A DNA stretch of 49,353 nt from Desulfobacterium sp. GTDB lineage: Bacteria; Desulfobacterota; Desulfobacteria; Desulfobacterales; Desulfobacteraceae. Positions 29,512 through 48,094 of the stretch are shown piece after piece; the first letter of the stretch is position 1; every line of letters starts with the position of its first letter. Both the position numbers and the translations under genes were made by a program. The stretch covers positions 1 through 49,353 of the forward strand of contig JAQYWC010000040.1 of NCBI GenBank assembly GCA_030145245.1, in the 5' to 3' direction. The notes under the pieces are model-generated. The model worked only from the letters and a program-made list of their open reading frames with translations, searched no databases and was not told the DNA's origin.

Positions 29512-31098
29512 ATGACCGATCTGAAACAATCGACTCCCCCCCTATCCACGGATCCAATCTCCCGGCGAAAATTTCTAAAGCAGATGTCCGCACTGGGTCT
29601 GTCCATGGCAATTTTACCAGGCGTGTTCCATGGCTCAGCACAGGCTGCCGTCCCCCAAAAGGGTGGGCGGTTCAGAATGGGCATGGGAGGGGCTCATACA
29701 ACGGATTCTCTGCACACGCCGACCCTGGCCGACCAGTTTGAAATGCACACCAACTACGCCCTTCGCAACAATCTTGTGGAAGTCAATCAAAAGGGAGAGG
29801 CCATACCCGAACTTGCGGAAAGCTGGGATGTCTCCTCAGATGCCGTTAAATGGATGTTCGACCTGCGCCGGGGCGTTGAATTTCACAACGGAAAAACCCT
29901 GGATGCCGAGGATGTGATCTACTCCATCCGCCATCACATGGGCCCGGATTCAAAGTCCGGCGCCAAGGGCCTTCTGGACCAGATAGACGAGATCCGGGCC
30001 GACGGCAAAAACAGGGTGCTCTTCACCCTGAAGGGCGGTAACGCCGACTTTCCCTACATCCTGAACGATTACCACCTGACCATTGTCCCGGCCGGCACCA
30101 CCGGCAACGAGTGGGAAAAGGGGATCGGCACCGGCGGTTACACCCTGGAGGAATGGGAACCCGGGGTCAGGAGTTTTTTGAAACGCAATCCCAACTACTT
30201 TAAGCAGGGACGGGCCCACTTTGACGAGGTGGAGATCCTGGGCATCAACGATGTAAACGCCCGCACCAACGCCCTTAAAACCGGCCGGATCGATTACATG
30301 AACCGGACGGAAGTGAAAACCGCCCACCTGTTTAAACGGATGCCGGGGATCGAGATTATGCAAACCGCGGGCGGCTTGCAATTTACCCTTGCCATGCTCA
30401 CGGACATCTCCCCCTTTGACCGGAACGATGCCCGCCTGGCCCTGAAACACGCCATTGACCGGGAAGAGATCGTCAAACAGGTCCTCAGGGGATATGGAAC
30501 CGTGGGCAACGACCATCCCATCCAGAAGAACGACCGGTTCTTTGCCGCAGATATTCCCCAAAGGCAATACGATCCGGACAAGGCAAAATTTTACCTGAAA
30601 AAGGCCGGACTCACGGACCAGACCTTTCCGTTGCACACCTCGGACCTGAACACCATCTATCTCGATATGGCCACCCTGTTCAAGGAGCAGGCCCGAAAGG
30701 CCGGCCTCAAGATCCAATTGATCAAGGAACCGGCAGACGGTTACTGGAGCAATGTCTGGATCAAAAAGCCCTTTTGCAACTGCCACTGGGCAGCCCGTCC
30801 GACAGCTGACATGATGCTGTCCGTGGCCTATACAAGCCAGGCAAAATGGAACGACACCCATCTCAAGAGCCCCCGTTTGGACGAGTTGGTAAAAATCGCC
30901 CGGGCTGAGCTGGACCAAGCCAAACGCCAGGAGGCCTACGCCGAATGTCAACGGATCATCCGGGATGAGGGGGGCACCATCGTTCCCTGCTTTAAAGATT
31001 ATGTGGAGGCCGCAAGCACAAAGGTTCAGCACGGTCCCATCTCCGGTCTGCTGGAATCCGATGCCCACCGGGCTGCCGAACGGTGGTGGTTTGCCTGA
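29512..31098 (+). CDS. Tat-exported family 5 substrate-binding protein (peptide/nickel ABC)
   Basis: A 528-residue extracellular solute-binding protein of family 5. The N-terminus has a twin-arginine signal SRRKFLK (17-23), a hydrophobic segment and GSAQA before the likely cleavage near residue 45. The body shows TLADQFEMHTNYALRNNLVE, WMFDLRRGVEFHNGKTLDAE DVIYSIRHH-type and GGTIVPCFKDY segments typical of the family. It would capture oligopeptides or similar solutes in the periplasm and deliver them to the downstream permeases. Tat rather than Sec export suggests folding or cofactor binding in the cytoplasm. First gene of a four-gene operon. Confidence 0.92.
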   Translation: MTDLKQSTPPLSTDPISRRKFLKQMSALGLSMAILPGVFHGSAQAAVPQKGGRFRMGMGGAHTTDSLHTPTLADQFEMHTNYALRNNLVEVNQKGEAIPELAESWDVSSDAVKWMFDLRRGVEFHNGKTLDAEDVIYSIRHHMGPDSKSGAKGLLDQIDEIRADGKNRVLFTLKGGNADFPYILNDYHLTIVPAGTTGNEWEKGIGTGGYTLEEWEPGVRSFLKRNPNYFKQGRAHFDEVEILGINDVNARTNALKTGRIDYMNRTEVKTAHLFKRMPGIEIMQTAGGLQFTLAMLTDISPFDRNDARLALKHAIDREEIVKQVLRGYGTVGNDHPIQKNDRFFAADIPQRQYDPDKAKFYLKKAGLTDQTFPLHTSDLNTIYLDMATLFKEQARKAGLKIQLIKEPADGYWSNVWIKKPFCNCHWAARPTADMMLSVAYTSQAKWNDTHLKSPRLDELVKIARAELDQAKRQEAYAECQRIIRDEGGTIVPCFKDYVEAASTKVQHGPISGLLESDAHRAAERWWFA

Positions 31099-31099
31099 T

Positions 31100-32056
31100 A
31101 TGAAGGATATGACAGCAACAATTTTAAAGCGGATCGGGCACAGCGTGATCACCCTGTTTGTGATCTCCATCCTCATCTTTGCCGGTGTGGAAGCGCTGCC
31201 GGGCGATCTTGCAGAATCCATCCTCGGGCAGAGCGCCCTGCCCGAGACCGTGGAGGCCTTTCGCAAGGAGCTGAAGCTGGATCTGCCCCCCCATGTTCGG
31301 TATATCTCATGGCTGGGTGATTTTGTGCAGGGGGAGATGGGACGCTCCCTTTCCAACCACCGGCCCATCACCGAACTCATCGGCTGGCGCCTTTCCAACA
31401 CCCTGTTTCTGGCCGCTGCCGCGGCCGTGGTGGCGGTTCCCCTGGCAATCATTCTGGGCATCCTGGCCGCCCTTTACCGCAACACGTTCTTTGACCGGAT
31501 CGTTTCCATGGTCTCCCTGAGTGCAATTTCGTTTCCCGAATTTTTCATCGCCTACATCCTCATCGCCCTGATATCGGTCAAGCTGCCGCTCTTTCCCAGC
31601 ATCTCTACCCTGGACGACCAGATGTCCCTTGCCGACAAGCTCTACACCATCGTGCTGCCCTGCCTGACCCTGACCATGGTGGTGCTTGCCCACATGATGC
31701 GCCAGACACGGGCGGCCATCATCAACGTCCTGGCCACGCCCTATATCGAGATGGCCCGGCTGAAGGGGGTCAGCCGGCTCCGTGTCGTGGTTCTCCACGC
31801 CTTTCCCAACGCCCTCTCTCCGGTGATCAACGTGGTGGCCCTGAATATGGCCTATCTTGTGGCGGGGGTCGTGATCGTGGAGGTGGTGTTTGTTTATCCG
31901 GGGCTCGGGCAGTTGCTGGTGGACTCCGTTTCCAAAAGGGACCTTCCCGTGGTGCAGGCAAGCGGTCTGATATTTGCCTCGGTTTACATCGGGCTGAACC
32001 TGCTGGCCGACCTGTTGTCCATTGCAAGCAACCCGCGTTTGAGAAATCCCCGTTAA
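31100..32056 (+). CDS. ABC transporter permease, DppB/OppB type
   Basis: A 319-residue inner-membrane protein with six predicted helices. The N-terminal ILKRIGHSVITLFVISILIF and the coupling-helix EAA-type motif IEMARLKGVSRLRVVVLHAF followed by PNALSPVINV identify a DppB-like permease. It begins one base after the binding-protein stop. A longer upstream frame overlaps that gene and is not credible as a start. It pairs with the next permease to form the channel. Confidence 0.92.
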   Translation: MKDMTATILKRIGHSVITLFVISILIFAGVEALPGDLAESILGQSALPETVEAFRKELKLDLPPHVRYISWLGDFVQGEMGRSLSNHRPITELIGWRLSNTLFLAAAAAVVAVPLAIILGILAALYRNTFFDRIVSMVSLSAISFPEFFIAYILIALISVKLPLFPSISTLDDQMSLADKLYTIVLPCLTLTMVVLAHMMRQTRAAIINVLATPYIEMARLKGVSRLRVVVLHAFPNALSPVINVVALNMAYLVAGVVIVEVVFVYPGLGQLLVDSVSKRDLPVVQASGLIFASVYIGLNLLADLLSIASNPRLRNPR

Positions 32057-32066
32057 GGATACCCCC

Positions 32067-32894
32067 ATGAGTTCACTGATTAAATTTATTCAAAAAGCGC
32101 CCTGGAGCGCAAAAATTGGCATTATCATCCTGGTCATAAACATCGCCGTTGCAGCATTTGCCCCGGTGATAAGCCCCTATGGGGAAACGGAAATCACAGG
32201 AGATGTGTGGGAGGAGATGAGCCTGACCCATCCCCTGGGGACGGATCACCTGGGACGGGATCTTCTCTCCCGGCTGATCTACGGAGCGCGCAACACCATC
32301 GCCCTTGCGCTCATGATAACCTTTCTCTCCTTTAGCCTGGGAACCCTGGGCGGTTTTCTGGCCGCCACCCTGGGCGGATGGTGCGATACCCTGCTGAGCC
32401 GGACGGTGGATCTCGTCCTCTCTTTTCCGACCCTCATCTTTGCCCTGATGGTACTCTCGGTGGTGGGTACCTCCATCTTCTCCCTGATCTGTGTCATCGC
32501 CATCCTGGATGCCACCCGGGTCTTTCGCCTGGCAAGGGCCGTTGCCATGGACATCGCCGTGATGGATTTTGTAGAAGCGGGCCGGCTTCGTGGTGAAAAA
32601 ACAGGCTGGATCATCCTGCGGGAAATTCTCCCCAACGCCCTGCCGCCGCTGGTGGCCGAGTTCGGTCTCAGGTTCTGCTTTGTGTTCCTGTTCATCGCCG
32701 GCCTGAGCTTCCTCGGACTGGGCATTCAGCCCCCCACGGCCGACTGGGGGAGCATGGTAAAGGAAAATGCCGGAGCCATCACCTTTGGTATCTTCACCCC
32801 CCTGTGGCCGGCCGCGGCCATTGCTTTTATCACCGTGGGGGTCAACCTTATTGTGGACTGGTTTCTGAACCTGGCAAGCGGATTAAAGGAGTAA
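32067..32894 (+). CDS. ABC transporter permease, DppC/OppC type
   Basis: A 275-residue inner-membrane protein. HPLGTDHLGRDLLSRLIYGA near the first periplasmic loop is the hallmark of DppC-like permeases. The coupling motif is VEAGRLRGEKTGWIILREIL followed by PNALPPLVAE. Hydrophobic helices cover the rest. It lies 10 nt after DppB and 1 nt before the ATPase gene. Confidence 0.92.
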   Translation: MSSLIKFIQKAPWSAKIGIIILVINIAVAAFAPVISPYGETEITGDVWEEMSLTHPLGTDHLGRDLLSRLIYGARNTIALALMITFLSFSLGTLGGFLAATLGGWCDTLLSRTVDLVLSFPTLIFALMVLSVVGTSIFSLICVIAILDATRVFRLARAVAMDIAVMDFVEAGRLRGEKTGWIILREILPNALPPLVAEFGLRFCFVFLFIAGLSFLGLGIQPPTADWGSMVKENAGAITFGIFTPLWPAAAIAFITVGVNLIVDWFLNLASGLKE

Positions 32895-32895
32895 C

Positions 32896-34524
32896 ATGAA
32901 AAACATTCTGAACATCACCGGCCTCACCATTGAAGGGTTTAATGACAACCAGTGGTCGACCATCGTCGACAAGGTCGACCTGACACTTGAGCGGGGAGAA
33001 ATCCTGGGACTCATCGGCGAGTCAGGCGCAGGAAAATCCACCATCGGGCTTGCATCCATGGGCTATTCCCGCAAGGGTTGCCGCATCTCTTCGGGTTCCA
33101 TCCGCTTTGACGGCACAGAGCTTTGCCAGGCATCCGACGGAGTCAAACAAAAGATCCGGGGAACCCGCATCGCCTATGTGGCCCAAAGCGCGGCCGCCTC
33201 TTTTAACCCGTCCCACCGGTTGATCAGGCAATGCACTGAAACGCCGGTGCGCCACGGTCAGATGAGTTCTGCCCAGGCGGAAAAGGAGGCCATTGAAAAC
33301 TACAGGCGCCTTCTGCTGCCCGATCCCGAGGGCATCGGCTTTCGGTATCCCCATCAGGTGTCCGGCGGTCAGCTGCAACGGGCCATGGTGGCCATGGCCA
33401 TGGCCTGCAAACCGGACATCATCGTATTTGACGAACCCACAACCGCCCTGGACGTGACCACCCAGATCGAGGTGCTCAACGCCATCAAACAGATCACCCG
33501 CCATTTTGGTACCGCAGCGCTGTACATCACCCATGATCTGGCCGTGGTCTCCCAGCTTGCGGACCGGATCATGGTGCTTAGGAACGGACAGAAGGTTGAG
33601 GAGAACCAGACCCGGGAACTGCTGGACACCCCGGAGAAGGCCTACACCCGCAGGCTCCTTTCCGTGCGCAGCCAGCGCCCCGATAAAAAGCCGGTTAAAT
33701 TGAAACAAAAAGTGATCCTCGAGGTCAACCAGGTGTCGGCCGCCTACAAGAAAAAGGAGCTGGTTCTCGATACCATAGATCTTACCATCCGGCGGGGCCA
33801 GACCGTTGCCCTGGTCGGAGAGTCGGGAAGCGGCAAGAGCACCCTTGCCCGGGCAATCACTGGTCTTCTCCCTCCCTTAAGCGGCGAGGTGGTGTTCCAG
33901 GGTGAAACCCTTGGTGCGAGTTACAGATCCCGCAACCGGGAGAGCCTGAGAAGGATGCAGATGATCTATCAGATGCCTGAAACCGCCCTGAATCCCAAGC
34001 AGACCATTGAAACGGCCATCGGCCGTCCCCTCTCCTTCTACTTTGGCATCTCGGGCAAAGAAAGGCGCAAACAGGTGCTGGAATTCCTGGACCGCATCGA
34101 GCTGCCGGCCAGCTACATCAACCGGTACCCCGGCGAGCTGTCCGGCGGAGAAAAGCAGAGAATCTGCGTGGCCCGGGCCCTGGCCGCAAAGCCCGATCTT
34201 GTGATCTGCGACGAGGTGACCTCGGCCCTGGACAACCTGGTGGGCGAAGAGATACTGAAGCTTCTGCAGAACCTGCAAAATGACCTGGGCGTCTCCTACC
34301 TGTTCATCACCCATGACCTGGCCACTGTAAAGGCGATCGCCGATGAGGTAGTTGTCATGCTCAAGGGAAAAATCGTTGAAAAGGGACCTATAGACAAAAT
34401 TCTCAACACCCCCGGCCACGATTATACGAAACGCTTGCTCAACTCTGTTCCAAAGATGGATCCGGACTGGCTGGACGATCTTTTGGGCAAAAGGAAGACC
34501 ACCCGGTCAAAGCGAGCGGCCTGA
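32896..34524 (+). CDS. Fused double ATPase of the peptide ABC importer (DppD-DppF type)
   Basis: A 542-residue protein with two complete ABC ATPase domains. Domain 1 has Walker A GESGAGKST (41-49), signature VSGGQLQRA (155-163) and Walker B IIVFDEPTTALD. Domain 2 has Walker A GESGSGKST (308-316), signature LSGGEKQRI (415-423) and Walker B LVICDEVTSALD. In the second site the usual Pro after DE is Val. In most peptide transporters these are two proteins; here a linker of about 40 residues joins them. It powers uptake through the two permeases. Confidence 0.93.
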   Translation: MKNILNITGLTIEGFNDNQWSTIVDKVDLTLERGEILGLIGESGAGKSTIGLASMGYSRKGCRISSGSIRFDGTELCQASDGVKQKIRGTRIAYVAQSAAASFNPSHRLIRQCTETPVRHGQMSSAQAEKEAIENYRRLLLPDPEGIGFRYPHQVSGGQLQRAMVAMAMACKPDIIVFDEPTTALDVTTQIEVLNAIKQITRHFGTAALYITHDLAVVSQLADRIMVLRNGQKVEENQTRELLDTPEKAYTRRLLSVRSQRPDKKPVKLKQKVILEVNQVSAAYKKKELVLDTIDLTIRRGQTVALVGESGSGKSTLARAITGLLPPLSGEVVFQGETLGASYRSRNRESLRRMQMIYQMPETALNPKQTIETAIGRPLSFYFGISGKERRKQVLEFLDRIELPASYINRYPGELSGGEKQRICVARALAAKPDLVICDEVTSALDNLVGEEILKLLQNLQNDLGVSYLFITHDLATVKAIADEVVVMLKGKIVEKGPIDKILNTPGHDYTKRLLNSVPKMDPDWLDDLLGKRKTTRSKRAA

Positions 34525-34654: not shown

Positions 34655-35398
34655 CTATTCCCAATCTGTGATTGAAATGGAATTGGTTAATATTCGTTGT
34701 TTTCCGTCCGGCAATATCTCTATCAATGCAAGATAAATTCTGTCGTTAAATGCGATTACTGAAGGGCTGATGAAATCGTTTTCATTGTTTTTTTCCGCCA
34801 GCACCTGCCATTTAAAGCCCTGATCATCAGAAAAAGAACCTGAAACAAAAACAAATCCCTTATCAGAAGTCGCTATGATTATATACTTGTCATTATAAAC
34901 AGACACATCAAACTCAAAGATATTCTTCCCATCAAACAGTGCTCCCGTATTCTGTGTCGGCTTTAGATCGGCTTTTAATCCAGCATATGTTAAATTACCG
35001 TGGGGAATATCTGGCCCCCTGACAATACCCGGCTTCCAGATTTTATAAAACATCAGATGCCCCTCCCGGCGGGGCTTGATAACAGCATGGACACCTGTCC
35101 CCAGTTCAATATATTTTTCATAATGACCGGAAGCATTGGGAGTAAAAGCAACAATACTGTCCTGTTCCGCAATGGTGACAACAGAAGGATGGATATCATC
35201 CGGGAATTTTAGAAAATAACGAGGTCCGTGAAAGCTTTCATGGGGATATTTTTGTGATACAACCAGATCATCGCCTTTCTCTTTTCTGATAAACAATTTA
35301 TTAATCGCTCCACCAAATCTTTGAAAAACCATCTCACAGGATTTATCCGGATTTACCCGGATATCCCAGTCCGGATGAGGTGGTAAAATCTGGTTCAA
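34655..35398 (-). pseudogene. Hypothetical protein, probably frameshifted near its 5' end
   Basis: An open frame of 247 residues has only a TTG start directly after an upstream stop. Inserting one A into the A5 run at 35401-35405 would link it to an upstream frame reading GSTNDYYDPSYGTG, NDQRAWEGGAIDGLIDLTHD and GAGYDNRMHGDEK, reaching back to about 35590, where no ATG is found. The product is beta-strand-rich (FISPSVIAFNDRIYLALIEI, KGFVFVSGSFSDDQGFKWQV), reminiscent of beta-propeller proteins, but I do not recognise the family. It follows the lipoxygenase gene on the same strand and may be its degraded operon partner. Confidence 0.55.
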
Positions 35399-35594: not shown

Positions 35595-37385
35595 CTAAAT
35601 ATTAATGCTTTGGGGAATCTCCGAGGGCCGGAGATAATGATAGGGCTCCATGCCTTCACTGATTGTTTCGTTGTTCCGCTGTTTGATTTCGTTTTCGATA
35701 TCCTCCAGTTCTGCCTGGAATTCGGCCAGGAACCGAGCAACACGATTATCACTGAAGTAGCGTCTGCCATACTGTCCAAGCTGGGTGTGGAGAACACCTC
35801 CCAGCAGGTTTCCGATGCTCAGCTGAAGTTCGGCCATCTCCAGGGGGGGAAGCATTTTCAGCCAGTCCTCTGATGTTTTCACGGTACCGTCCGGAGGGGG
35901 AGCATATCCGGCCAGGGGCATGGCAGGGGTGAACGCCATGATATCCCGTTGGGGAAAATTAACGGCAGCATGTTGTGCACTTGCCGTAAAGATGATCATG
36001 GTAACGGCATCCACCAGATAGTCAAGGGTGTAGATCCGGCCATCGGACTCCTGGCCGAAATCATGCACCCGGCCGCCGTTCTCAGAAGCAATTTCCAGGG
36101 CCCATGCCTGGAGTTCCGTATCGTTCTGCACATCCGCGTTACTACCATAGTAAATCGAGAGATAATTCCTGACCCAGCCTTTGATTGCATCCCACAGATC
36201 TTCAGCATCATCACGATAGGGATACTCCAGGCGTGAGCTCAAGACCCCGCGCTTTTCCAGATCCCGGGGCAGCATCCGTTCATTGAAGGAGAGGGTTTTC
36301 AGGGTATCTGCGGCAAATTTCCGATCGGACTCAATGGTGGCCGTGAGCAATTGATCCACCGCGCCCTTTGGCGCAATCAAAAATTCCTGGGCTGCCCAGT
36401 TGATAAAAACCGTTCCTTCAAAATGGGGCAGGAGAAGAATCCTAAGGGGATGATTCTCCGCAAGCCGCCGGTGGGTGGCCGGCACAAAGGGTTCAACAAA
36501 CAGATGGGTGGCTCCCAGATGGGAGATCAGTTCATGGTAATTACCGTCAGCGATCTGGACGATGGTTTTTGCCATCAGCCACTCCCAGGGTCCGCTGTTC
36601 TGGGTCAGTATGCTGTTTTTCGCCGGGTCCTGCCCGCATTGAATCGCAATGGGTAGCAATGCCGCCCCACTGGTATCAAGGGGAATGGCAAACAGGGCCT
36701 TGGGTGCATAGACATATTTCTGTCCCTTGGGAAAGCTTCCAGGGGCCATGCCTTGGAGGGCTTTGAAGTCCACGATATAGAGCCTGTTTTCGGCTGCGGC
36801 CCGGGCCGTTGAATCATTTTCAAACCCGGTTACACCACGGAAATCATCTTCCGTCACCGGAAAACGTTCATCCAGGAAAGCGCCTCCGACCGATGGGACC
36901 TTGGTGATCATCATGGGGTTCGGTCCGGCAACCCTCATCCTGGCAAACACTTTATCCTCTTTAAAGGTATGGGCGACCCCTGGAAGTTCGATGGAGGCAA
37001 ACAAGTCATTGTAATCGTCCAGTGTACTGGCTTTGCCTGTTCTGGTGAAGTTAAACAATTTAACCACCTGTTCAAATTTCTCTTTTACCACCTCTTCGGA
37101 CCCCATGCCTGACAATGTCCTGATGATATGGACACTTGTGGAAAAGAAAGCCTGTCTGGCCGGAATCTCGTCATTCAGCGAATTATTTATCAGAATTTTA
37201 ACCAGTTCCTTTCCGACTTTGAACACCCAGTCGAGTTCCGGGAATTCTCCGGAAGGGATACCATTTACCATTGCGATGGGCTTCAGATATTCGTAATTGT
37301 ACTGGTACTGACTTCGCTCTTTCCGAAGCCTTTTTGCCCGACGGATTGATTTGGGATCATTTTGCGGAAGGGATGGATTTGTCAT
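35595..37385 (-). CDS. Lipoxygenase
   Basis: A 596-residue bacterial lipoxygenase without an N-terminal PLAT domain or visible signal peptide. All five iron ligands of the family can be placed: H284 and H289 (NYHELISHLGATH), H472 and N476 (SAQHAAVNFP) and the C-terminal I596 (IPQSINI), whose carboxylate binds iron. The enzyme would insert O2 into polyunsaturated fatty acids. GGAGAGG precedes the ATG by 4 nt. It lies 100 nt downstream of the response regulator on the same strand, so it may belong to the YfiR-kinase-regulator operon. An O2-using enzyme is unexpected if the host is a strict anaerobe. Confidence 0.93.
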   Translation of the reverse strand: MTNPSLPQNDPKSIRRAKRLRKERSQYQYNYEYLKPIAMVNGIPSGEFPELDWVFKVGKELVKILINNSLNDEIPARQAFFSTSVHIIRTLSGMGSEEVVKEKFEQVVKLFNFTRTGKASTLDDYNDLFASIELPGVAHTFKEDKVFARMRVAGPNPMMITKVPSVGGAFLDERFPVTEDDFRGVTGFENDSTARAAAENRLYIVDFKALQGMAPGSFPKGQKYVYAPKALFAIPLDTSGAALLPIAIQCGQDPAKNSILTQNSGPWEWLMAKTIVQIADGNYHELISHLGATHLFVEPFVPATHRRLAENHPLRILLLPHFEGTVFINWAAQEFLIAPKGAVDQLLTATIESDRKFAADTLKTLSFNERMLPRDLEKRGVLSSRLEYPYRDDAEDLWDAIKGWVRNYLSIYYGSNADVQNDTELQAWALEIASENGGRVHDFGQESDGRIYTLDYLVDAVTMIIFTASAQHAAVNFPQRDIMAFTPAMPLAGYAPPPDGTVKTSEDWLKMLPPLEMAELQLSIGNLLGGVLHTQLGQYGRRYFSDNRVARFLAEFQAELEDIENEIKQRNNETISEGMEPYHYLRPSEIPQSINI

Positions 37386-37485
37386 GGTGCCTCTCCGGTA
37401 TCATTAAAGTTAAAAATCAGTGAATGATTCTTCGTCATCAAAAGTAATCACCTGGTTGGGTTTTACTTCGTTTCAGGAAACCATG

Positions 37486-37863
37486 TCAGACGCCGGTCTT
37501 CCGCCTGATTGCTTCGCGGATGACATCCAGGTCGTCCAGGGGTTTATTGAAGACATCTTCCTTGCATATCCCTAGCTTTTTGAGTTGCTCCGGAAGAATA
37601 TACTCGGTCGATCCGGTATGAATAATGAACGCCATCCCGGTGTATATCCTGGATGCATTCATTACAAAGTCGTTACCATCCATCCTCGGAAGGCGAATAT
37701 CCACAATGACAACATGGAAACGTTCTTTTTCCAGTTTTTCAAGTGCTTCCTCGCCGCTGCTGACAGAAACCGTATGTAACCCTTCATCCTCCAGATAATC
37801 GCAGAGACCTAACAAAACTGACGGGTCATCATCCACAACCAAAATCCGAATTTGTTGTGTCAT
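37486..37863 (-). CDS. Single-domain response regulator
   Basis: A 125-residue receiver domain with no output domain. The acidic pocket is VVDDD (9-13), phospho-acceptor D55 (VIVDIRLPRMDG), T83 (IIHTGS) and K107 (FNKPLD). Like CheY or Spo0F it would act by protein contact or as a phosphorelay step. The ATG overlaps the kinase stop (ATGA), so the kinase is its partner. Confidence 0.93.
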   Translation of the reverse strand: MTQQIRILVVDDDPSVLLGLCDYLEDEGLHTVSVSSGEEALEKLEKERFHVVIVDIRLPRMDGNDFVMNASRIYTGMAFIIHTGSTEYILPEQLKKLGICKEDVFNKPLDDLDVIREAIRRKTGV

Positions 37864-40151
37864 GCTAAGGTACTCCTTTCCAAAGGAAGCCGGATAACGA
37901 ACTTTGTTCCGCTACCGGGCATGGACTCCAGGGTCATTGTTCCGTTATGATTTTCAGTGATAATGAAATAGGATACGGACAATCCAAGGCCGGTTCCAAA
38001 GCCGACGCCCTTGGTAGTAAAAAATGGTTCAAACACCCGTTTCCTGACGGCTTCAGGCATACCGGGTCCGTTATCTTCCACTTCGACACGAAGCATTTCC
38101 CCCTCTTGTTTTGCCCGGAGTATAATAAGGGGCCTGGCAGCCCCACCGTCTTTCATACTGTATTCCGTGCTTTCCGACATGGCCTGGGCGGCGTTCTTAA
38201 GGAGATTGAGAATAACCTGCTGTATCTTGGAGCCTTCGCAATATATCATGGGCAGCCCGGGCTGATACTCCCTCAGTATTTCTATTTTCCGAAAATCGTA
38301 ATTTTTTTTCAAATTATAATCACTGGAAGCAAGATCCAAGGTTTTATCCAGGAGATCCGGTATACTCTGCAACAAGAAATGGGACTCACTTTTGCGGCTG
38401 AAACTCAACATGTTATCAACAATTACTGCAGCCCGTTTGCCGGAGTCTCTCACTGCATCCAGCATTCTAAGGATGCCCCGTTTATCCATAAACACCTTAA
38501 TACATTCCATGGTGGTACCGCTTTCTTCTGCGACCCGGTCGTTTACCGGCGAACTTTCGGAGAGACGCCGCAACGCATTCTGGGTATTCTGAAGAACGCC
38601 GGCCAGGGGATTGTTGATTTCATGGGCCATACCGGCCGCAAGACCGCCCACGGAAAACATCTTCTCCGATTGGACCATGATCTCCTCAATGCGCACCCGT
38701 TCAGTTACATCATCGATCCGGATAACCGCACCGTCAACCCCATCGGAGATAAGCGGATAGACCGTGATATCCGAAAAACGCCTTTCTCCGTCTACTTGAC
38801 TGCCAACCTTTGCATCCCTCTGCACCTCCCGGGAGAGAATAGCCTGCCGGACCCGTTGCATATCCACTGCCAGCAGGGGAAATACTTCCGACAAAATATT
38901 CCCCTGTGCTTTTTCCTGTGCAAGTCCAGTTACACGGCTGGCTTCCCGGTTCCAATGGGTCACCCGCCCTTCCGAATCAATGCCCACAAGTACCGATGGC
39001 ATGGAATCAATCATGTTCTTCAAAACATTTCGCAAACGGTTCATCTCTTCTGCGGATTTTATGTGTGCAGTCATATCCCTGAAATTCCAAACACGGCCCG
39101 CCGCTTTTCCGCCTTTTATCAAAGGGCATGAGAATGTTTCAAAAGCGCTTCCATCCCTGAGTCGAATCATATCAAAGCTTTCGTCCGTGGTATCATACAA
39201 CTGCTTAATCTTTTTCAGGAATTCCTGGGGATCTATCAGCTTTTCCATAAAATGATCAATCAAGGCAGTGTTCTCGTCAGTTTTAAACCCCTCTTGCGGC
39301 ATCTGCCACATCTCTGTAAACCGAGCGTTGTTATGGGAGACGGCACCTTTGACATCGACCACCAGGATGCCTTCTGCAGTGGATTCAAGAATGCCCCTCA
39401 GGACCTCTTCTCTCTCCCGAAGTTCGCTCTCGGCCTTATCCCTTTCGGCCTCCCTCAAGCGAATCTGCTTCAACATATTGTTGAAGCCGTCATACAGATC
39501 TCCAATTTCATCATCCCCGATTTTTTGAACCTGGATGGAATAGTCTGCCCCTTTGGAAACTCTCCCGGTCACTTGAGCCAGTTCCAGTATGGGTTTAGAA
39601 ATCACCCTTTGGAACCGGGATGCAAGGAAATAGGACATAATGACCAGAAAAACCATCAGGCATATCATGGTGACAAGATATGCCTGGATTTTTTCATGAA
39701 GCAGTGCTGTCGAAAATCTGAGATAAAGGATACCATACCGCTTGTTTTGAAATGTGATGGGATGATACAGGTTTAGGAATTTTCCTTCAAATTCCCCTAT
39801 TATCTCGTTTGTGGCCAAGGGGGCTTCAATGGCCTTGCCGTTCCTGGCAAATGAGGCAAAAGGGAGACCTTTGTTATCATATAAAACACCATTGTCAACC
39901 GTATGCATTCCTTTTAGCCGTGCCAACATCTCTTCCGCGCCATCTTTATCTTCAAAAACCAGAGGAGAGACCAGATAATCACCAATGAGTTGGGCATTTA
40001 TTAATGCATTATCATGCATATCCTCTTTAAAGATCCGAATATCATTGGTAATAACAACGCCAAACCCAAAGAATATTGCCAGAAGGCTGCTTGAGATAAT
40101 AATTCCAATAATCTTTTTTCTGATGGATAGATTTCGGAATTTCATCATCAT
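37860..40151 (-). CDS. Membrane histidine kinase with CHASE8-like sensor, HAMP and two PAS domains
   Basis: A 763-residue sensor kinase. TM1 is about 12-34, followed by a short periplasmic segment (about 35-150, NALINAQLIGDYLVSPLVFE, TVDNGVLYDNKGLPFASFAR) resembling the CHASE8 domain of YfiN. TM2 is about 155-178, then HAMP, a coiled coil and two PAS domains (about 245-365 and 375-490). The dimerisation domain has H510 (GMAHEINNP), and the ATPase domain has N653 (LLKNAAQA), DNGPGMP and GTGLGLS. It overlaps the YfiR gene upstream and the response regulator downstream by 4 nt each. In YfiBNR systems YfiR binds a CHASE8 sensor, so YfiR probably modulates this kinase. Confidence 0.93.
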   Translation of the reverse strand: MMMKFRNLSIRKKIIGIIISSSLLAIFFGFGVVITNDIRIFKEDMHDNALINAQLIGDYLVSPLVFEDKDGAEEMLARLKGMHTVDNGVLYDNKGLPFASFARNGKAIEAPLATNEIIGEFEGKFLNLYHPITFQNKRYGILYLRFSTALLHEKIQAYLVTMICLMVFLVIMSYFLASRFQRVISKPILELAQVTGRVSKGADYSIQVQKIGDDEIGDLYDGFNNMLKQIRLREAERDKAESELREREEVLRGILESTAEGILVVDVKGAVSHNNARFTEMWQMPQEGFKTDENTALIDHFMEKLIDPQEFLKKIKQLYDTTDESFDMIRLRDGSAFETFSCPLIKGGKAAGRVWNFRDMTAHIKSAEEMNRLRNVLKNMIDSMPSVLVGIDSEGRVTHWNREASRVTGLAQEKAQGNILSEVFPLLAVDMQRVRQAILSREVQRDAKVGSQVDGERRFSDITVYPLISDGVDGAVIRIDDVTERVRIEEIMVQSEKMFSVGGLAAGMAHEINNPLAGVLQNTQNALRRLSESSPVNDRVAEESGTTMECIKVFMDKRGILRMLDAVRDSGKRAAVIVDNMLSFSRKSESHFLLQSIPDLLDKTLDLASSDYNLKKNYDFRKIEILREYQPGLPMIYCEGSKIQQVILNLLKNAAQAMSESTEYSMKDGGAARPLIILRAKQEGEMLRVEVEDNGPGMPEAVRKRVFEPFFTTKGVGFGTGLGLSVSYFIITENHNGTMTLESMPGSGTKFVIRLPLERSTLA

Positions 40152-40699
40152 TCTCCATGAACAGGTTTTACGATTTTTGCAAACTCCAGAAGGCGATAAT
40201 TCATAATCAGTCCTGACTTGCGGACGGCTGATTCATTTATTGTAAACCGAACCCTGCGTTTATCCATAAAAAAGTTAATCAGTACCCCTCGTTCGGCAAA
40301 GCCCTTTGTATCACTGACCGTAAGGATGGGTTTATCCTCGGTAAAAGAAAGGAGCTGAGCCAGACCATGCTTTTTAGATGCAGAGATAAACACCAAATGA
40401 CAGGATAATGATTCCTTAACGTCTTCAAGATAGCGAATTTCCACCTTTCGGTCTTTTATTTTTTTTTCTGAATAAATCTCTTCCAGAAGACCGCCATAGG
40501 GGTTTTCCCCGATCACACCAATCACAAAGTTTTTTAAGGAGTTTTCTGCTTGATTCATATGGGGCCATTCAACAAATCGGGTAAACCGTTCAAGAAAAAC
40601 CGCTTTAATCTCATATTCCAGCAGGTCTGCGTAGGCTGAATTCGGAACACAGATCATTATCAATAAGATAATTGTATTTTTTTTTAAACTGTTCAACAT
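40148..40699 (-). CDS. YfiR-family periplasmic protein
   Basis: A protein of about 183 residues. The start at 40699 (MLNSLKKN) is preferred because GAGGGGA lies just upstream, inside the codons that a start at 40714 would use. A Sec signal peptide (TIILLIMICVPNSAYA) precedes the YfiR/DUF4154 domain: YEIKAVFLERFTRFVEWP, FVIGVIGENPYG, CHLVFISASKK, ILTVSDTKGFAERGVLINFF and RVRFTINESAVRKSGL. In Pseudomonas YfiR represses the cyclase YfiN through its periplasmic domain. Here the adjacent partner is a histidine kinase, overlapping by ATGA. Confidence 0.9.
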   Translation of the reverse strand: MLNSLKKNTIILLIMICVPNSAYADLLEYEIKAVFLERFTRFVEWPHMNQAENSLKNFVIGVIGENPYGGLLEEIYSEKKIKDRKVEIRYLEDVKESLSCHLVFISASKKHGLAQLLSFTEDKPILTVSDTKGFAERGVLINFFMDKRRVRFTINESAVRKSGLIMNYRLLEFAKIVKPVHGE

Positions 40700-40758
40700 A
40701 CGATCCCCTCGCATTGGGAGGCGAGATCTTATAATTTTACAAACAAGGAACGGTATAA

Positions 40759-40789: not shown

Positions 40790-40986
40790 TATCATTATCA
40801 GGGCGTGTCAAAACGGGTAAATCAAAACGTGGGCATGAAATGTTAACACATGACAGGTCCTTCAAGAACCTTCATATCCAGAGGTTGCCCAGCCGCAGTT
40901 GGAAGATTTTTAGGGGGTTTTAAAAGGGGAAAAAAAAGACTATATATATATTATGATTCAAGGCGATTAAATCAGGAGCGGTGAAA

Positions 40987-42939
40987 ATGGGAAAGATCCG
41001 GGATCCGTCGTTACCATTCATCACGGGAATGATACTCGTTTTCCTTATATTTGTTGCGGTGCCCTCTTTTACTTATGCCGTATCAGAGGAAAAGGAACCA
41101 AACCTCATAAAGGATTCCTTAACTGAGAAGGAGATGGCGTGGCTGGGCAGGCACCCGGTTATCAGTCTTGCCCTTGACGAGGGCAGCCCTCCCATGAATT
41201 ATCGAGACAGCCGGGGGAAGCTGGCCGGTATCAGTATCGACTACTTGAAACTGATCCAGGAGAAACTCGGCATCGAGATCAGGTTGGAGGGATCCGCGTG
41301 GAATGAGGCCCTTCAAAAAGCCCTGGACCACCAGGTGGACGGGGTTGTCAATGCCGCAGCCAAGGAGGACCGAAAGCCTTTCCTCAATTTTTCAGCCTCC
41401 TATTTCACGACACCTGTGGCGCTGATCACCCGGAAGAACACCCCGCCTCTCACCAACCTCAGCCAGTTGTCAGGCAAACCTGCCGTGATCATCAAGGGAA
41501 GCATCCGGGATGAAATCATCAAACAACACTCCCCGGAAAGTGAGATCATGGAAGTTTCAGACCTTTTGGAAGGGCTCAAGCTGGTATCGGAGGGAAAGGC
41601 CTATGCAATCCTGGATGATTTGCCGGTGATGCAGCATATGATTGAAAAGTACTTTTTTTCCAACCTGCAGGTGGCACTGATCTATTATCACCGGGTTGCT
41701 GGGCTGTCGAGGATCGGATTACGAAACGACAGCCAGGAACTGCTGTCTGTTTTTAACCATGCCATCGCCGCCATAACCCCTGAAGAACATCAAAAAATCA
41801 AGCAAAAATGGCTGAGGTTAAGCGATGATATCCATGTTCAGACAGAATCCCTTTTCACGGAAACGGAAAAGAGGTGGCTTGCAGACCATCCTGTCATCCG
41901 GGTTGCCTGCGACCGGAACTGGGCACCCATAGAGTATGCGGGGCAGGCGGGTGACTTTCACGGCATCTCCATCGATTATTTAAACTACCTTGAAAAAAAA
42001 CTGGGGGTTCACTTTGAAATAGCCGGTAATCTCAGCTGGGTGGAAATGGTTGAAAAGGTGAAGGCCGGAGAGCTGGACATGTTTTCGGCCATCTCCCGGA
42101 CGGCGGAACGAAGCAGGTTTCTGGAATTCACAGAGCCCTATCTGTCCACTCCCGTGGTCATATTTGCAAGCCGGGAGGTCACCTATATCAGAAACCTCAA
42201 AGAACTGGAGGGTAAAAAAGTCGGTATCGTTGAAGGTTTTGCCGTTCAGGAGTGGCTCTCCAACTCTAATCCCTCAATAACGCTGGTTCCCCTGCAACAT
42301 GTGCAAGAGTCCATGAAGAGGCTTCAGAAAGGGGAAATTGATGTGTTTGTCGGCGATCTTGTATCCGGAAGCTATCAGATTACAAAACTGGGATATACCA
42401 ACATCAGGGTGGCGGGAGAAACGCCTTACAGAAATCACCTATCCCTGGCCGTCAGAAAGGACTGGCCGGTTTTTGCAACGATCATCCAAAATGTGCTTCG
42501 CGACATGACGGAAAAGGAGCGTAACGATATCTATCGCAACTGGATCACCATCAAATACGAGCATGACATCGATTACAGGTTGCTCCTGGAAGTCCTGGCG
42601 GGCTTTCTTTTTATCGTGCTTCTGTTTACTTACTGGAACCGGCGTCTCAGCGATGAAATAAAAGAGCGCAGACAGGTGGAAAAATCACTGCTTCAGGAGC
42701 AACGCAAACTTCAGGAAGCGCTTCTTGAAGTCAAGGTGTTGAGCGGACTGCTCCCCATCTGTGCATCCTGCAAAAAAGTCAGGGATGACAAAGGCTACTG
42801 GAACCAGATAGAAACCTATATTGAACGCCACACCCAAGCCTTGTTCAGCCATGGCATGTGCCCCGCATGTGAGGAGAAGTTGTATGGGGATCAGGAATGG
42901 TTCAGGAAGATGCGAAAGAAACAGACCGGACAAGAATGA
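40987..42939 (+). CDS. Membrane sensor with two solute-binding domains and a C-terminal Cys4 domain
   Basis: A 650-residue protein from ATG 40987 (AGGAG 9 nt upstream; GTG 40981 is too close to it). The signal sequence/TM is about 10-30. Two tandem SBP_bac_3 domains follow: about 45-275 (MAWLGRHPVISLALDEGSPP) and about 285-515 (RWLADHPVIRVACDRNWAPI). TM2 is about 532-552, then a coiled coil. The C-terminus reads LLPICASCKKVRDDKGYWNQ with C592, C595, C625 and C628 (a zinc-ribbon-like CxxC pair set) and no kinase, GGDEF or HTH. The Cys segment recurs as a C-terminal module in other bacterial sensor proteins (from memory), with unknown output. It is transcribed away from the YfiR operon. Confidence 0.85.
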   Translation: MGKIRDPSLPFITGMILVFLIFVAVPSFTYAVSEEKEPNLIKDSLTEKEMAWLGRHPVISLALDEGSPPMNYRDSRGKLAGISIDYLKLIQEKLGIEIRLEGSAWNEALQKALDHQVDGVVNAAAKEDRKPFLNFSASYFTTPVALITRKNTPPLTNLSQLSGKPAVIIKGSIRDEIIKQHSPESEIMEVSDLLEGLKLVSEGKAYAILDDLPVMQHMIEKYFFSNLQVALIYYHRVAGLSRIGLRNDSQELLSVFNHAIAAITPEEHQKIKQKWLRLSDDIHVQTESLFTETEKRWLADHPVIRVACDRNWAPIEYAGQAGDFHGISIDYLNYLEKKLGVHFEIAGNLSWVEMVEKVKAGELDMFSAISRTAERSRFLEFTEPYLSTPVVIFASREVTYIRNLKELEGKKVGIVEGFAVQEWLSNSNPSITLVPLQHVQESMKRLQKGEIDVFVGDLVSGSYQITKLGYTNIRVAGETPYRNHLSLAVRKDWPVFATIIQNVLRDMTEKERNDIYRNWITIKYEHDIDYRLLLEVLAGFLFIVLLFTYWNRRLSDEIKERRQVEKSLLQEQRKLQEALLEVKVLSGLLPICASCKKVRDDKGYWNQIETYIERHTQALFSHGMCPACEEKLYGDQEWFRKMRKKQTGQE

Positions 42940-43966: not shown

Positions 43967-44842
43967 ATGGCTAAATTTCATATCGTATTAGTAATTATTT
44001 TCTGGGCATCCGCGTTTGTCGGAATCCGCCACGCTGTTGTTGAATATCATCCGTTTGAGCTGGCATTGTTCCGGTATATCGTTGCATCGATCACCTTATT
44101 GATTGTTGCATTTTTTAAACAGATACGATTACCGGAGATTAAGGATCTCTTCCGTTTTTCTGTCACAGGAATTATCGGAATATCTGTTTATAATATTGCC
44201 CTGAATTATGGTGAACTCACAACCACCGCCGGGGAAGCCTGTTTCATTGTAAATATGGCACCATTGTTTACCACGCTTATGGGATTCTATTTCCTTAAAG
44301 AAAGAATCAGGCTTAATTTTGCTATTGGATTGCTCATCAGTTTTTCAGGCGTATCATTAATCGCAATCTCTTTTTCAAACGGGATCGCTTTTAAAACAGG
44401 TTCCTTGTATATCCTTATTGCGGCCATGGCCCAGGCCCTGTATTTTATTTTGCAAAAGCCATTGCTGAACAGATATACGCCCATGGAAGTCACCTGCTAT
44501 TGTTTGTGGAGCGGCACCATTGCAATCTTCCCTTTTGGATTGAGCTTATTTGAAAAGATCCCATCTGTAAGTCCGGAATATACACTCACGGTTATTTATC
44601 TTGGAATTTTTCCGGCGGCCATGGCTTATCTGTGCTGGTCCACAGTATTATCAAATATGGATGCGTCAAAAGCCTCTTTATTTTTATACACTGTTCCCGT
44701 CATCGCCATCCTTATCGGATGGATCGGGTTAAATGAACTCCCATCCCCTGTTTCAATCCTTGGCGGCGCTATTGCCATTACAGGAGTTATTTATGCCAAT
44801 ATGAAAGAATCTGATAGATTAAAAAAAGGAGAAGTCATATGA
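43967..44842 (+). CDS. EamA-family (DMT) transporter
   Basis: A 291-residue inner-membrane protein with about ten helices in two EamA repeats (FHIVLVIIFWASAFVGIRHA at the start; IPSVSPEYTLTVIYLGIFPA and AYLCWSTVLSNMDASKAS in the second half). Members export amino acids, metabolites or drugs; the substrate is not predictable. AAAGGA lies 8 nt before the ATG. Its stop overlaps the start of the flavin-reductase gene (ATGA). Confidence 0.9.
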   Translation: MAKFHIVLVIIFWASAFVGIRHAVVEYHPFELALFRYIVASITLLIVAFFKQIRLPEIKDLFRFSVTGIIGISVYNIALNYGELTTTAGEACFIVNMAPLFTTLMGFYFLKERIRLNFAIGLLISFSGVSLIAISFSNGIAFKTGSLYILIAAMAQALYFILQKPLLNRYTPMEVTCYCLWSGTIAIFPFGLSLFEKIPSVSPEYTLTVIYLGIFPAAMAYLCWSTVLSNMDASKASLFLYTVPVIAILIGWIGLNELPSPVSILGGAIAITGVIYANMKESDRLKKGEVI

Positions 44843-45429
44843 AAAAACAACTGGGGCCTTCTGATGCAATTTTCCCTGTACCTGCAGCATTGATCGTAAG
44901 TGGAACAGATGAAGATGCGAATATTATTACACTGGCATGGGTCGGCATTGCAAGCTCCACTCCGCCGACCATTGGAATTTCAATCAGGCAATCCCGATAC
45001 TCCTTAGAGCTGATACGAAATACCGGTGAATTTTCAGTTAATTTCCCGGACGCATCGATATTTAAAGAGGTAGATTATTGCGGTATTACGACTGGCCGGA
45101 GGCGAAACAAATTTAAAGATACAGGCTTTACGCCATTGGCATCAAAAAAAATAAAATCGCCAATTATAAAGGAATGTCCATATAATATTGAATGCAGGGT
45201 TTCCCAGGAAATCATCATTGGTGACTACGTCCATATATTAGGTGAGATTCTTGAATCCCATGTTGACGGGGACAAGGCTGACAAATCAAAACGGGCGGGG
45301 TTTGATTTACTTAAAATCAACCCCCTTGTATACTTTGCAGAGGCTCGGGAATACTGGACGGTTGGAGAAAAACTGGGATACGGGTTCAGTGCGGGGAAAG
45401 CAATTAAGGAAAAGAGTAAAAACCGATAA
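44839..45429 (+). CDS. Flavin reductase-like FMN-binding protein (flavoredoxin type)
   Basis: A 196-residue split-barrel flavoprotein. FPVPAALIVSGTDEDANIIT, LAWVGIASSTPPTIGISIRQ, RYSLELIRNTGEFSVNFPDA, VDYCGITTGRRRNKF and GDYVHILGEILE are typical of the flavin-reductase-like family, which includes flavoredoxin of sulfate reducers. It binds FMN and transfers electrons or reduces flavin; the partner is unknown. It is translationally coupled to the EamA transporter and converges on the GGDEF gene with a 9-nt gap. Confidence 0.88.
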   Translation: MKKQLGPSDAIFPVPAALIVSGTDEDANIITLAWVGIASSTPPTIGISIRQSRYSLELIRNTGEFSVNFPDASIFKEVDYCGITTGRRRNKFKDTGFTPLASKKIKSPIIKECPYNIECRVSQEIIIGDYVHILGEILESHVDGDKADKSKRAGFDLLKINPLVYFAEAREYWTVGEKLGYGFSAGKAIKEKSKNR

Positions 45430-45438
45430 CCGGATGCT

Positions 45439-47907
45439 TTACCCATCCATCTCGGTCCGGTTGCGGCCGGCTTGCTTGGCCCGGTACAATGCCTGATCCG
45501 CAGCTTTGTACATGGACTCCATGTCGGACGGATAGGTTGAAACAACAAAGCCAAAGGAGGCGGTAAGGAAATCCGACACCGGATTGTGCTGGTGCTCCAT
45601 GGCCAGTTCCTGGACGGCGATCCTCACGCCTTCGACAAAGCCCATTGCCTGGTCCGGATCAAGGGTGGTAAACAGGATGCCAAACTCTTCGCCTCCGAGC
45701 CGGAAGGCATGGTCTGTGGCCCTCCTGCAGTAGTCAAGGAGAAGTTCTCCCAGCCGGACAAGGGCATCATCCCCCATCTGGTGACCGTAAAAATCGTTGT
45801 ACTGTTTAAAGTAATCGATATCCATGATTGCAAAGGCCAGGTATTGCCCGGAACGACGAACCCTGCGGATTTCAATGGGAAAGACCTCCTTGAATTTTCG
45901 CCGGTTAAAAAGGCCGGTCAAAGGATCCATGGCCGCAAGCAGTTTCACCTTGTCCTTTTCTTTGCGCAACTCATCTTCCACCTGGTTTCTCACCTGGATC
46001 TCCCTTCGGAGTCTCAGGTTCAGGCCGGACAGGCGCCTGATCCAGTAAGCCGAAGCCCACAGGACAGCCAGGACCGGAAGCAGCACCTTCCAGAGCAGAC
46101 CATAGTCAAACCCGTGCTCATAGCGCAGGGTGATCCACTTCTGATAGATGGTGTTCCGCTCCTTTTCAGAGATGGATGCCATTGCCTTTTCAACCAATGT
46201 CGCAAACAGGGGCCAGTCTTTGCGCACGGCCATGCAGACCTCAAGTCCATGGGGGGTTGTTCCGGAGACCTTCAGGCTGGTGATCCCCTCTTTCTTGATG
46301 GTATAATTTGCCGTGGCAAGGTTTCCCACATAGGCGTAGGCCTTTCCCGCAACCACACAGTTAAGGGCCCGGGCCGTTGTTTCTTCAGGATAGAGATCAA
46401 TGCCGGGATAGTTTTCCCTGAGGATCTCGTGTTCCGCATAATCCCTGACAACGGCAACCCGCCGTCCCTTCAAGGCCTTCATGTCCTCAACAAAATCGAC
46501 ATTTTCATTGGTTATCACCACCAGGGCAAAGCTCAGGTAGGATTGGGTAAAGGTCATGCTCTTTTGTCGCTGGTGAGTTGGGGCAATGGCGGCGATCATG
46601 TCCACCTGCCGGTTTTCCATGGCGTTCAGGGTTTGAGACCAGGACAGATCCTTTGAACAGACAAAATGGATTCCAAGACGGTCTTCAAGGATTCGGATAT
46701 AGTCGGCAGCAATGCCTTCATACTTACCGTCCGGGTCAAGGAATTCAAACGGAGGCGAGTCAGCGTCGATCCCAAGCCTGACCCTGGGATGCCCGGCCAG
46801 CCACTGGCGCTCCTGTTCGGTGAGCGTGAACGCCCCGGCACTGTGATAAAAGGTATCGAGGAGATACAGCAGATCAAAATGATACAGCAGCGATCCGTTT
46901 TGGGATTTTGATAAACGCTTGAAATCGATGCGTTCCCAGGTGTCCGACAGGAAGCCTGACACCTGGTCCACGTTGCTGCTGTCGATGGCATACATTCCGG
47001 TATTAAACACGGTATTTTCCTGGGAAAAGTCCATGGCGTTCAGATAATCGTACATCAGGATCAGGGCCCAGGCTCCTTCAAACATGTGGCCGCCCACACT
47101 CACCTTGTTTTGATTGGATCGAATGCCTCTTACGGCATCGTCGCTCCAGTCAATGCCGCCAACCACGATTCTGTCCCGGCCCATGCCCATCCCATTTACG
47201 GCATCCATCACCCCAAGAGCGATATCATCCCCGGCCGCCCACACCGTATTGAGATCAGGATGGCGGCGAAATATTGATTCAAACACCTCTTTGGCCTTCT
47301 CCCGGCTCCAGCTTTTTCCGGCATCCACGATCCCATACAGGGTCACATCCTCCCGGTTTAAAACAACCGATTTAAGCCCCCGGACACGATCAATGGATGA
47401 TTTTTCCTTAGGATTTCCCTGGATAGCCACCATGCGGATTTTGTCCCATCCGGCATCCTTGCCCATATCGATCAACCGCTCGGCAAGCAATCCCCCGGCC
47501 CTGGCATCATCCGGCGTAATGCTTCCGATCCAGTGGGAGAACTGTTTCCTTGGCACCATCATGGGATCTGCAAAACCTGTATTATAGAGCAGGGCAGGCA
47601 CCTTAAACCGCTCCGCAACCCTGAGGATCTCTTTGCCGGTATTTTCATAATTCATGAAGATGATGCCGTCCGTTCCCTGTTTACAAACGGTTTTCACCTG
47701 TTCCAACATGGTTTCGCAACGGTTGCCTGCATCATGGACCGTAAGCGTCAACTCAAGATCACTGGCTGCCGACCGGGTAAGCCTGACAAGGGTGGACCAG
47801 AAACTGGTGTCATCCCGGGGAACAAACAGGGACACCCGGAAAGCGGAAACAGGGGATGCAAACAGCAGCGATAGAATCACGATAATAATCAACCTGTTTT
47901 TCAGCAT
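45439..47907 (-). CDS. Diguanylate cyclase with type I and type II periplasmic binding domains
   Basis: An 822-residue membrane cyclase. The start at 47907 (MLKNRLIIIVILSLLFASPV) has a signal-like N-terminus and a GGGGG ribosome site; an extension to 48267 is rejected. Residues about 22-335 form a type I (sugar-type) periplasmic binding domain (VSLFVPRDDTSFWSTLVR, GTDGIIFMNYENTGKEI, VWAAGDDIALGVMDAVNGMG). Residues about 375-605 form an SBP_bac_3 domain (RQWLAGHPRVRLGIDADSPP). Then come a TM near 625-645, a coiled coil and GGDEF (MDPLTGLFNRR, active GGEEF at 738-742, RATD inhibitory I-site at 729-732). It should make c-di-GMP in response to a periplasmic solute. Confidence 0.92.
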   Translation of the reverse strand: MLKNRLIIIVILSLLFASPVSAFRVSLFVPRDDTSFWSTLVRLTRSAASDLELTLTVHDAGNRCETMLEQVKTVCKQGTDGIIFMNYENTGKEILRVAERFKVPALLYNTGFADPMMVPRKQFSHWIGSITPDDARAGGLLAERLIDMGKDAGWDKIRMVAIQGNPKEKSSIDRVRGLKSVVLNREDVTLYGIVDAGKSWSREKAKEVFESIFRRHPDLNTVWAAGDDIALGVMDAVNGMGMGRDRIVVGGIDWSDDAVRGIRSNQNKVSVGGHMFEGAWALILMYDYLNAMDFSQENTVFNTGMYAIDSSNVDQVSGFLSDTWERIDFKRLSKSQNGSLLYHFDLLYLLDTFYHSAGAFTLTEQERQWLAGHPRVRLGIDADSPPFEFLDPDGKYEGIAADYIRILEDRLGIHFVCSKDLSWSQTLNAMENRQVDMIAAIAPTHQRQKSMTFTQSYLSFALVVITNENVDFVEDMKALKGRRVAVVRDYAEHEILRENYPGIDLYPEETTARALNCVVAGKAYAYVGNLATANYTIKKEGITSLKVSGTTPHGLEVCMAVRKDWPLFATLVEKAMASISEKERNTIYQKWITLRYEHGFDYGLLWKVLLPVLAVLWASAYWIRRLSGLNLRLRREIQVRNQVEDELRKEKDKVKLLAAMDPLTGLFNRRKFKEVFPIEIRRVRRSGQYLAFAIMDIDYFKQYNDFYGHQMGDDALVRLGELLLDYCRRATDHAFRLGGEEFGILFTTLDPDQAMGFVEGVRIAVQELAMEHQHNPVSDFLTASFGFVVSTYPSDMESMYKAADQALYRAKQAGRNRTEMDG

Positions 47908-48094
47908 CAATCCCCCTTCAGAAATAACTTTTTTCACATCATACAGCCTTTCGCGACGATTGTTCAAGGGAATAAAAACCTTGATTTTTATAAAGACACC
48001 AGCTAAACATGAAGATAATAATCCAAACCAAAAGACAGTACAATATCGTAACCGCTTTATTAGCATCCATTGACACGAACAGGGAAATGGCGCT

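Follow-up and report, generated by a model that had tools for sequence, protein, structure and literature searches.

Among described signalling systems, the closest to the locus analysed here are YfiBNR of Pseudomonas aeruginosa and its distant relatives. The GGDEF output often gives way to GGDEF-EAL pairs, HPT domains or sensor histidine kinases in distant Yfi operons, and Malone et al. 2012 (PMC3375315) term the YfiR-YfiN sensor core modular. In the legend of their Fig. S5, D. autotrophicum HRM2, which belongs to the same genus as the DNA studied here, is one of five distant Yfi examples. Pairing YfiR with a sensor kinase is a Yfi variant already in the literature and modelled in NCBIfam, and the relay that the first-pass annotation described at our locus is not new in this respect. 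For P. aeruginosa YfiR, PMC4655355 describes two conserved Cys pairs, including a Cys145-Cys152 disulfide.

The window, by which we mean the whole stretch of 49,353 nucleotides of Desulfobacterium sp. that was analysed, belongs to contig C1 of a 6.4 Mb genome, and the genus is represented by three genomes in the collection. The genes considered below and the neighbours named by eye are the following:

35595 to 37385, minus strand: lipoxygenase (LOX), 596 aa; PF00305, E-value 4e-61
37386 to 37485, minus strand: gap between the receiver and LOX genes, exactly 100 nt
37486 to 37863, minus strand: lone receiver (single-domain response regulator), 125 aa; PF00072, E-value 1.3e-18
37860 to 40151, minus strand: sensor histidine kinase, 763 aa, with CHASE8, HAMP, two PAS, HisKA and HATPase domains (Pfam)
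40148 to 40714, minus strand: YfiR-like, putatively periplasmic protein (DUF4154); Pfam PF13689, E-value 4.8e-39; likely start at 40699
29512 to 34524: ABC transporter (named by eye)
43967 to 44842: EamA-like transporter (named by eye)
44839 to 45429: flavin-reductase-like protein (named by eye)

Sequence and Pfam agree with the first-pass annotation on the position and minus-strand orientation of the four genes from yfiR to LOX, and the overlaps and the gap that it described are seen in the sequence, yfiR and the kinase gene, as well as the kinase and receiver genes, overlapping by 4 nt (ATGA in each case). The further proposal, that this relay is tied to lipid oxidation, holds in one part only: the relay stands as a tight gene group, while the link to lipids is not supported, LOX and the trio of yfiR, kinase and receiver genes being found apart in two other genomes (G902 and G974, described below). 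We conclude with good confidence that the trio and LOX are two independent units lying side by side and that their adjacency does not reflect a conserved functional link. The adjacency itself has probably arisen by chance.

Several other ORFs surround the four genes. Divergent from yfiR, the gene at 40981-42939 on the plus strand encodes two SBP_bac_3 stretches and no enzymatic output domain by Pfam; from this domain content it looks like a sensor that has lost its output. A GGDEF protein with Peripla_BP_4 and SBP_bac_3 domains is encoded at 45439-48267 on the minus strand, its called start being probably too far upstream. LOX is followed at 34655-35398 (minus strand) by a 247-aa ORF that matches neither Pfam nor NCBIfam at E 0.01. 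This ORF is absent from the sister genome G001, since only about 60 nt separate the LOX stop codon from the next gene there.

The YfiR-like protein scores 134.2 bits against PF13689 (cut-off 24.9) and 127.1 bits against NCBIfam NF053591 (YfiR_like_TOL0243), passing the curated cut-off of 125. An in-frame ATG at 40714 offers an alternative start upstream of 40699, and the GAGGGG stretch seen by eye immediately before 40699 favours the latter. The N-terminus, also judged by eye, is hydrophobic and signal-peptide-like and ends in SAYA. The C-terminal region, which reads INFF...RVRF.IN...SGL...LL..AKIV in the window, is partly conserved across ten aligned YfiR proteins; a PDB sequence search with YfiR returned a chance-level match only. 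Cys residues occur only at position 22, in the signal region, and at position 105 (188-aa numbering), leaving a single Cys in the mature part, so that disulfides of the P. aeruginosa type cannot form. A redox-sensing YfiR of that type, which would carry the two Cys pairs, was accordingly rejected.

The kinase sensor, previously called similar to CHASE8, is a true CHASE8 domain (PF17152, 44.3 bits against a cut-off of 27). Directly after yfiR we find the architecture CHASE8, HAMP, HisKA and HATPase by both Pfam and sequence, with H510 read as the HisKA histidine, and Pfam detects no GGDEF domain in the kinase such as the sensor-HAMP-GGDEF partner of YfiBNR would have. Residues 9-231 of the kinase align with the sensor model NF053592 (HK_near_YfiR_like) at 167.4 bits, below the curated cut-off of 194. 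The catalytic half of the kinase is one of a large family of paralogues in the genus and stands behind different sensors at the loci of G001 and G002, the comparison of the window kinase with these two genomes being covered by DNA search; the best paralogue of this half among those compared reaches 60 % over 396 aa. In the Acidobacteriota genome with the next-closest LOX (G468, contig C170, locus L092), a YfiR-CHASE8 kinase pair is present on a different contig from LOX, and the catalytic half of its kinase is 56 % identical to that of the window kinase. The lone receiver retains D12/D13, D55 and K107, presumably the acidic pocket, the phospho-accepting Asp and the conserved Lys. Response_reg is the only Pfam domain above its cut-off in this protein, and no output domain was found.

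By analogy with YfiBNR, the first of the two units would be a YfiR-controlled two-component relay. YfiR in the periplasm would bind the CHASE8 domain of the kinase and hold the kinase in one signalling state. When YfiR is titrated away or freed by an envelope signal, the kinase would alter the phosphorylation of the receiver, which may act through protein contact, given that it lacks both DNA-binding and enzyme domains.

Of the 389 genomes of the order, 105 have a YfiR match. We opened 38 YfiR loci (18 + 18 + 2) out of many matches, mostly the best-scoring ones, including three paralogous loci of the window's own genome. A CHASE8 protein is encoded directly after YfiR, with a gap of at most 20 nt, for 33 of the 43 YfiR-like ORFs at these loci, one of the 43 being a 73-aa fragment. 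This count derives from 35 YfiR-like ORFs that have a CHASE8 ORF no more than 4 kb away; two (gaps of 2568 and 2994 nt) were dropped as non-adjacent. Two loci where YfiR overlaps the CHASE8 ORF through a long called start (L075 and L183) were left out of the 33, and at L182 the contig terminates at YfiR. At three exceptional loci (L062, L194 and L196) YfiR is followed by a TonB receptor with no kinase. The large ORFs upstream of YfiR proved to be TonB receptors in all eight cases tested, and some loci have no such ORF. A LOX match was found in none of the 38 loci. The YfiR-kinase pair is an ordinary arrangement, and it occurs without LOX.

A lone receiver adjacent to the YfiR-kinase pair and on the same strand is rarer, being found among the 38 loci at L184 alone, in a genome of another family (G974). 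The gene order there is TonB receptor, lone receiver, YfiR and CHASE8-PAS-PAS kinase, the contig stopping 213 nt past the kinase. The G974 kinase shares 42 % identity with the window kinase over 748 aa, nearly end to end, and the two receivers are 33 % identical. At one more locus (L074) a lone receiver lies about 3.6 kb off on the opposite strand. G974, which was presumably part of the searched set, is not among the three LOX-positive genomes of the 389 in the order. The receiver-YfiR-kinase group of G974 suggests that the Yfi relay with a lone receiver is a real variant.

The surroundings of the other pairs raise a different reading of the relay itself. At 8 of the 18 YfiR loci of the first set the kinase gene is directly followed by a GGDEF ORF, which at L065 encodes a REC-PAS-GGDEF-EAL protein by Pfam. 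It is possible that the relay of the window works in a c-di-GMP network, with a former REC-GGDEF partner and the lone receiver as a reduced or intermediate component, but we regard this as doubtful. Three of the eight loci (L065-L067, one per genome of the genus) seem to be orthologous to one another and are hence non-independent, and no downstream GGDEF was found at any of the 18 loci of the second set. Neither a TonB receptor nor a GGDEF gene touches the trio in the window, where the nearest GGDEF gene found (45439-48267) lies beyond four other ORFs. The presence of a lone receiver in G974 as well makes the arrangement look like a stable variant instead.

The LOX protein scores 207.8 bits against PF00305 (cut-off 23.6) and matches solved lipoxygenases (PDB 8x8f, E-value 1.1e-118), while neither a PLAT domain nor any other Pfam family was found in it at E 0.01. 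All five iron ligands reported earlier (H284, H289, H472, N476 and I596) are present. Their columns agree in an alignment with seven full-length and one partial bacterial LOX, except for the Nostoc protein, which deviates at the N476 and I596 columns. Identity to the seven full-length members is 32-47 %. At the position aligned with A420 of P. aeruginosa LoxA, which we take to be the Coffa site, the window LOX has Ala. No signal-peptide-like start is evident by eye in the window LOX, unlike in the P. aeruginosa protein with its signal-like N-terminus, and a GGAGAGG sequence resembling a ribosome site precedes the LOX ATG.

The possibility that the LOX gene is decayed was rejected. Its reading frame is unbroken, and non-synonymous differences lie far below synonymous ones in the comparison with the closest LOX outside the genus, that of G902, a genome of another family: pN is 0.17 and pS 0.74 in the C-terminal part, and pN 0.25 and pS 0.81 in the N-terminal part, with synonymous sites saturated, so that no ratio was derived. 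The second unit would be an enzyme that oxidises polyunsaturated acyl chains when O2 is present, as its conserved ligands and homology suggest, translated from its own ribosome site. It is probably cytoplasmic and patchily distributed, judging from its sequence and its relatives.

The distribution of LOX is indeed narrow. Matches were found in 2 of 78 relatives, 2 of 86 genomes of the family and 3 of 389 members of the order; each of these three sets includes the G001 fragment described below among its matches. In a phylum sample 2 of 395 genomes match, one of them above the cut-off; the sets of 78, 86, 389 and 395 genomes overlap. In the phylum of an Acidobacteriota genome 2 of 297 match, both above the cut-off. 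A scan of genome contigs with LOX gave one locus. An intact LOX in a genus of sulfate reducers (3 of 389 genomes of the order match, one of them with a fragment) is the unusual feature of this locus.

The neighbourhoods of LOX elsewhere do not include the relay. The G902 gene is split over two contig ends, with 61 % identity over residues 1-261 and 73 % over residues 215-596; the two ends overlap inexactly, possibly reflecting strain variants or two copies, in an assembly that is fragmented, 87 % complete and 6 % contaminated. Upstream of this gene lie about 1.1 kb with small ORFs (at most 78 aa) and then a divergent ORF without Pfam match, and downstream a universal stress protein and an aminotransferase. 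No match to YfiR, CHASE8 or receiver was found on the two whole LOX contigs of G902, nor is this genome, which we assume to have been in the searched set, among the 105 YfiR-positive genomes of the 389. The closest LOX found outside the order, at 46 % identity, comes from an Acidobacteriota MAG (L003:7992-12842). Next to this LOX, downstream and in the same orientation, lie a chemoreceptor-like gene and a cytochrome P450 gene, with gaps of 48 and 15 nt, possibly an oxylipin pair. Near the LOX genes of G468 and G727 no match to YfiR, CHASE8 or receiver was found.

Five of seven plasmid LOX hits were also opened, H4 and H5, both from Rhodococcus, being left out. None of the annotated genes at these five loci is a YfiR, CHASE8 or receiver gene, the plasmid gene tables being incomplete. 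One of the five, from Rhodococcus, has a LysR regulator two genes off. On a Pantoea ananatis plasmid (L098) the genes immediately after LOX are annotated as lysozyme and lysis protein.

The history of LOX within the genus can be followed in the sister genomes. G001 is collinear with the window on both sides of the locus, with the ABC transporter on one side and the EamA-like gene on the other (names by eye), and lacks the whole stretch from LOX codon 508 to the next collinear gene. Its LOX consists of codons 508-596 only. The first 75 nt of one G001 contig (L057:1-75) belong to a sequence with six identical copies, and LOX is picked up from codon 508 onwards; another contig starts with 70 nt of a second six-copy sequence and continues in the interior of the EamA-like gene (L056:1-70). 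All six copies of the 75-nt sequence are at contig ends. A mobile element has likely interrupted both LOX and the EamA-like gene and broken the assembly, a reading that we infer from these ends; no transposase was seen. The LOX fragment is still open, with a dN/dS of 0.16 over 89 codons compared to 0.17 and 0.10 for two control genes, which is consistent with a recent cut. LOX probably predates the split between the window species and G001 and was later cut in one of them. For YfiR and the receiver, identity to the window proteins in G001 reaches no more than 47 % and 45 %, so no close copy of either is assembled there. G002, of the same genus, has no LOX match.

For D. autotrophicum HRM2 we take Desulforapulum to be the present genus name. 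The genome of this marine sulfate reducer holds cydAB, catalase and rubrerythrin, according to PMC2702500, which makes contact with O2 plausible in this genus. Among the matches listed from the open-licence literature, no paper has a title on a lipoxygenase of sulfate reducers, and none joins by title lipoxygenase with gene neighbourhood or DUF4154 with TonB receptors. The term 'desulf' is absent from the main text of PMC11011848.

Although LOX and the trio are best regarded as separate units, transcription may still run from one into the other. The shared strand, the 100-nt gap and the lack of a terminator or promoter match in it make read-through across the gap plausible. The scan itself, with consensus promoters and terminators, is weak either way, since 17 promoter-like and 11 terminator-like sites came up in the region as a whole where 10.6 and 7.8 are expected. 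We hold only tentatively that LOX is passively co-transcribed in this manner without being a target of the relay, a reading compatible with two units. Two things speak against it, namely the stretch of about 1.1 kb that the G902 relative has to itself upstream and the window LOX's own ribosome-site-like sequence.

A stronger version, in which the four genes form one operon and lipid oxidation by LOX is under the control of the relay, or feeds information to it, in this species, is quite unlikely. The common strand, the short gap without consensus signals and the intactness of LOX agree with it. As a conserved operon, the four-gene order was rejected: none of the 38 YfiR loci and none of the opened LOX loci combine the trio with LOX, and the two parts occur separately in G902 and G974. 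LOX is so rare, however, that independent loci are few. There is also no direct route from a periplasmic sensor, as the receiver has no DNA-binding domain and LOX no signal-like start; regulation of LOX by the relay would need an extra step because of the former. The first-pass annotation had named two observations that would speak against its proposal, and they came out differently, with no conserved neighbourhood seen in our sample and neither a promoter nor a terminator of its own for LOX found in the gap. We consider it very unlikely that relay and LOX are a recently assembled species-level unit that would couple envelope or O2 stress at an oxic/anoxic interface to acyl-lipid oxidation. 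The probabilities attached to these alternatives are not mutually exclusive.

With the locus separated into a Yfi relay and a neighbouring LOX, an attractive connection of Yfi signalling to lipid oxidation falls away for want of support. A sharper question is left, namely why members of at least two families of the order, which includes sulfate reducers, have a conserved LOX that requires O2. In the second LOX-bearing family of the order, no regulator lies beside LOX.

As in YfiBNR of P. aeruginosa, the gene for a YfiR-family protein in the window immediately precedes that for a membrane protein carrying CHASE8 and HAMP domains. The output differs, GGDEF in P. aeruginosa corresponding to a histidine kinase and a lone receiver here, and the OmpA-like lipoprotein YfiB has no counterpart in the eight scanned ORFs of the window (the four genes and four neighbours), none of which has an OmpA-like domain. 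The Cys145-Cys152 disulfide described for P. aeruginosa YfiR in PMC4655355 contrasts with the single Cys of the mature window protein. In terms of the NCBIfam pair NF053591/NF053592, the window YfiR lies above its cut-off and the kinase below. The groups of TonB receptor, YfiR and CHASE8 kinase found elsewhere in the same taxonomic order share the YfiR-kinase core of the window, and G974 adds the lone receiver to it; these groups have the TonB receptor upstream of YfiR, where the window has instead the divergent substrate-binding-domain gene at 40981-42939. On the side of the enzyme, the closest comparison is with bacterial LOX proteins without PLAT domain (PF00305; P. aeruginosa LoxA and those of cyanobacteria and Acidobacteriota), which have the five ligands, the C-terminal Ile and the Ala at the A420 column in common with the window LOX. 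The P. aeruginosa protein differs in its signal-like start, none being seen by eye in the window LOX, which comes from a genus of sulfate reducers.
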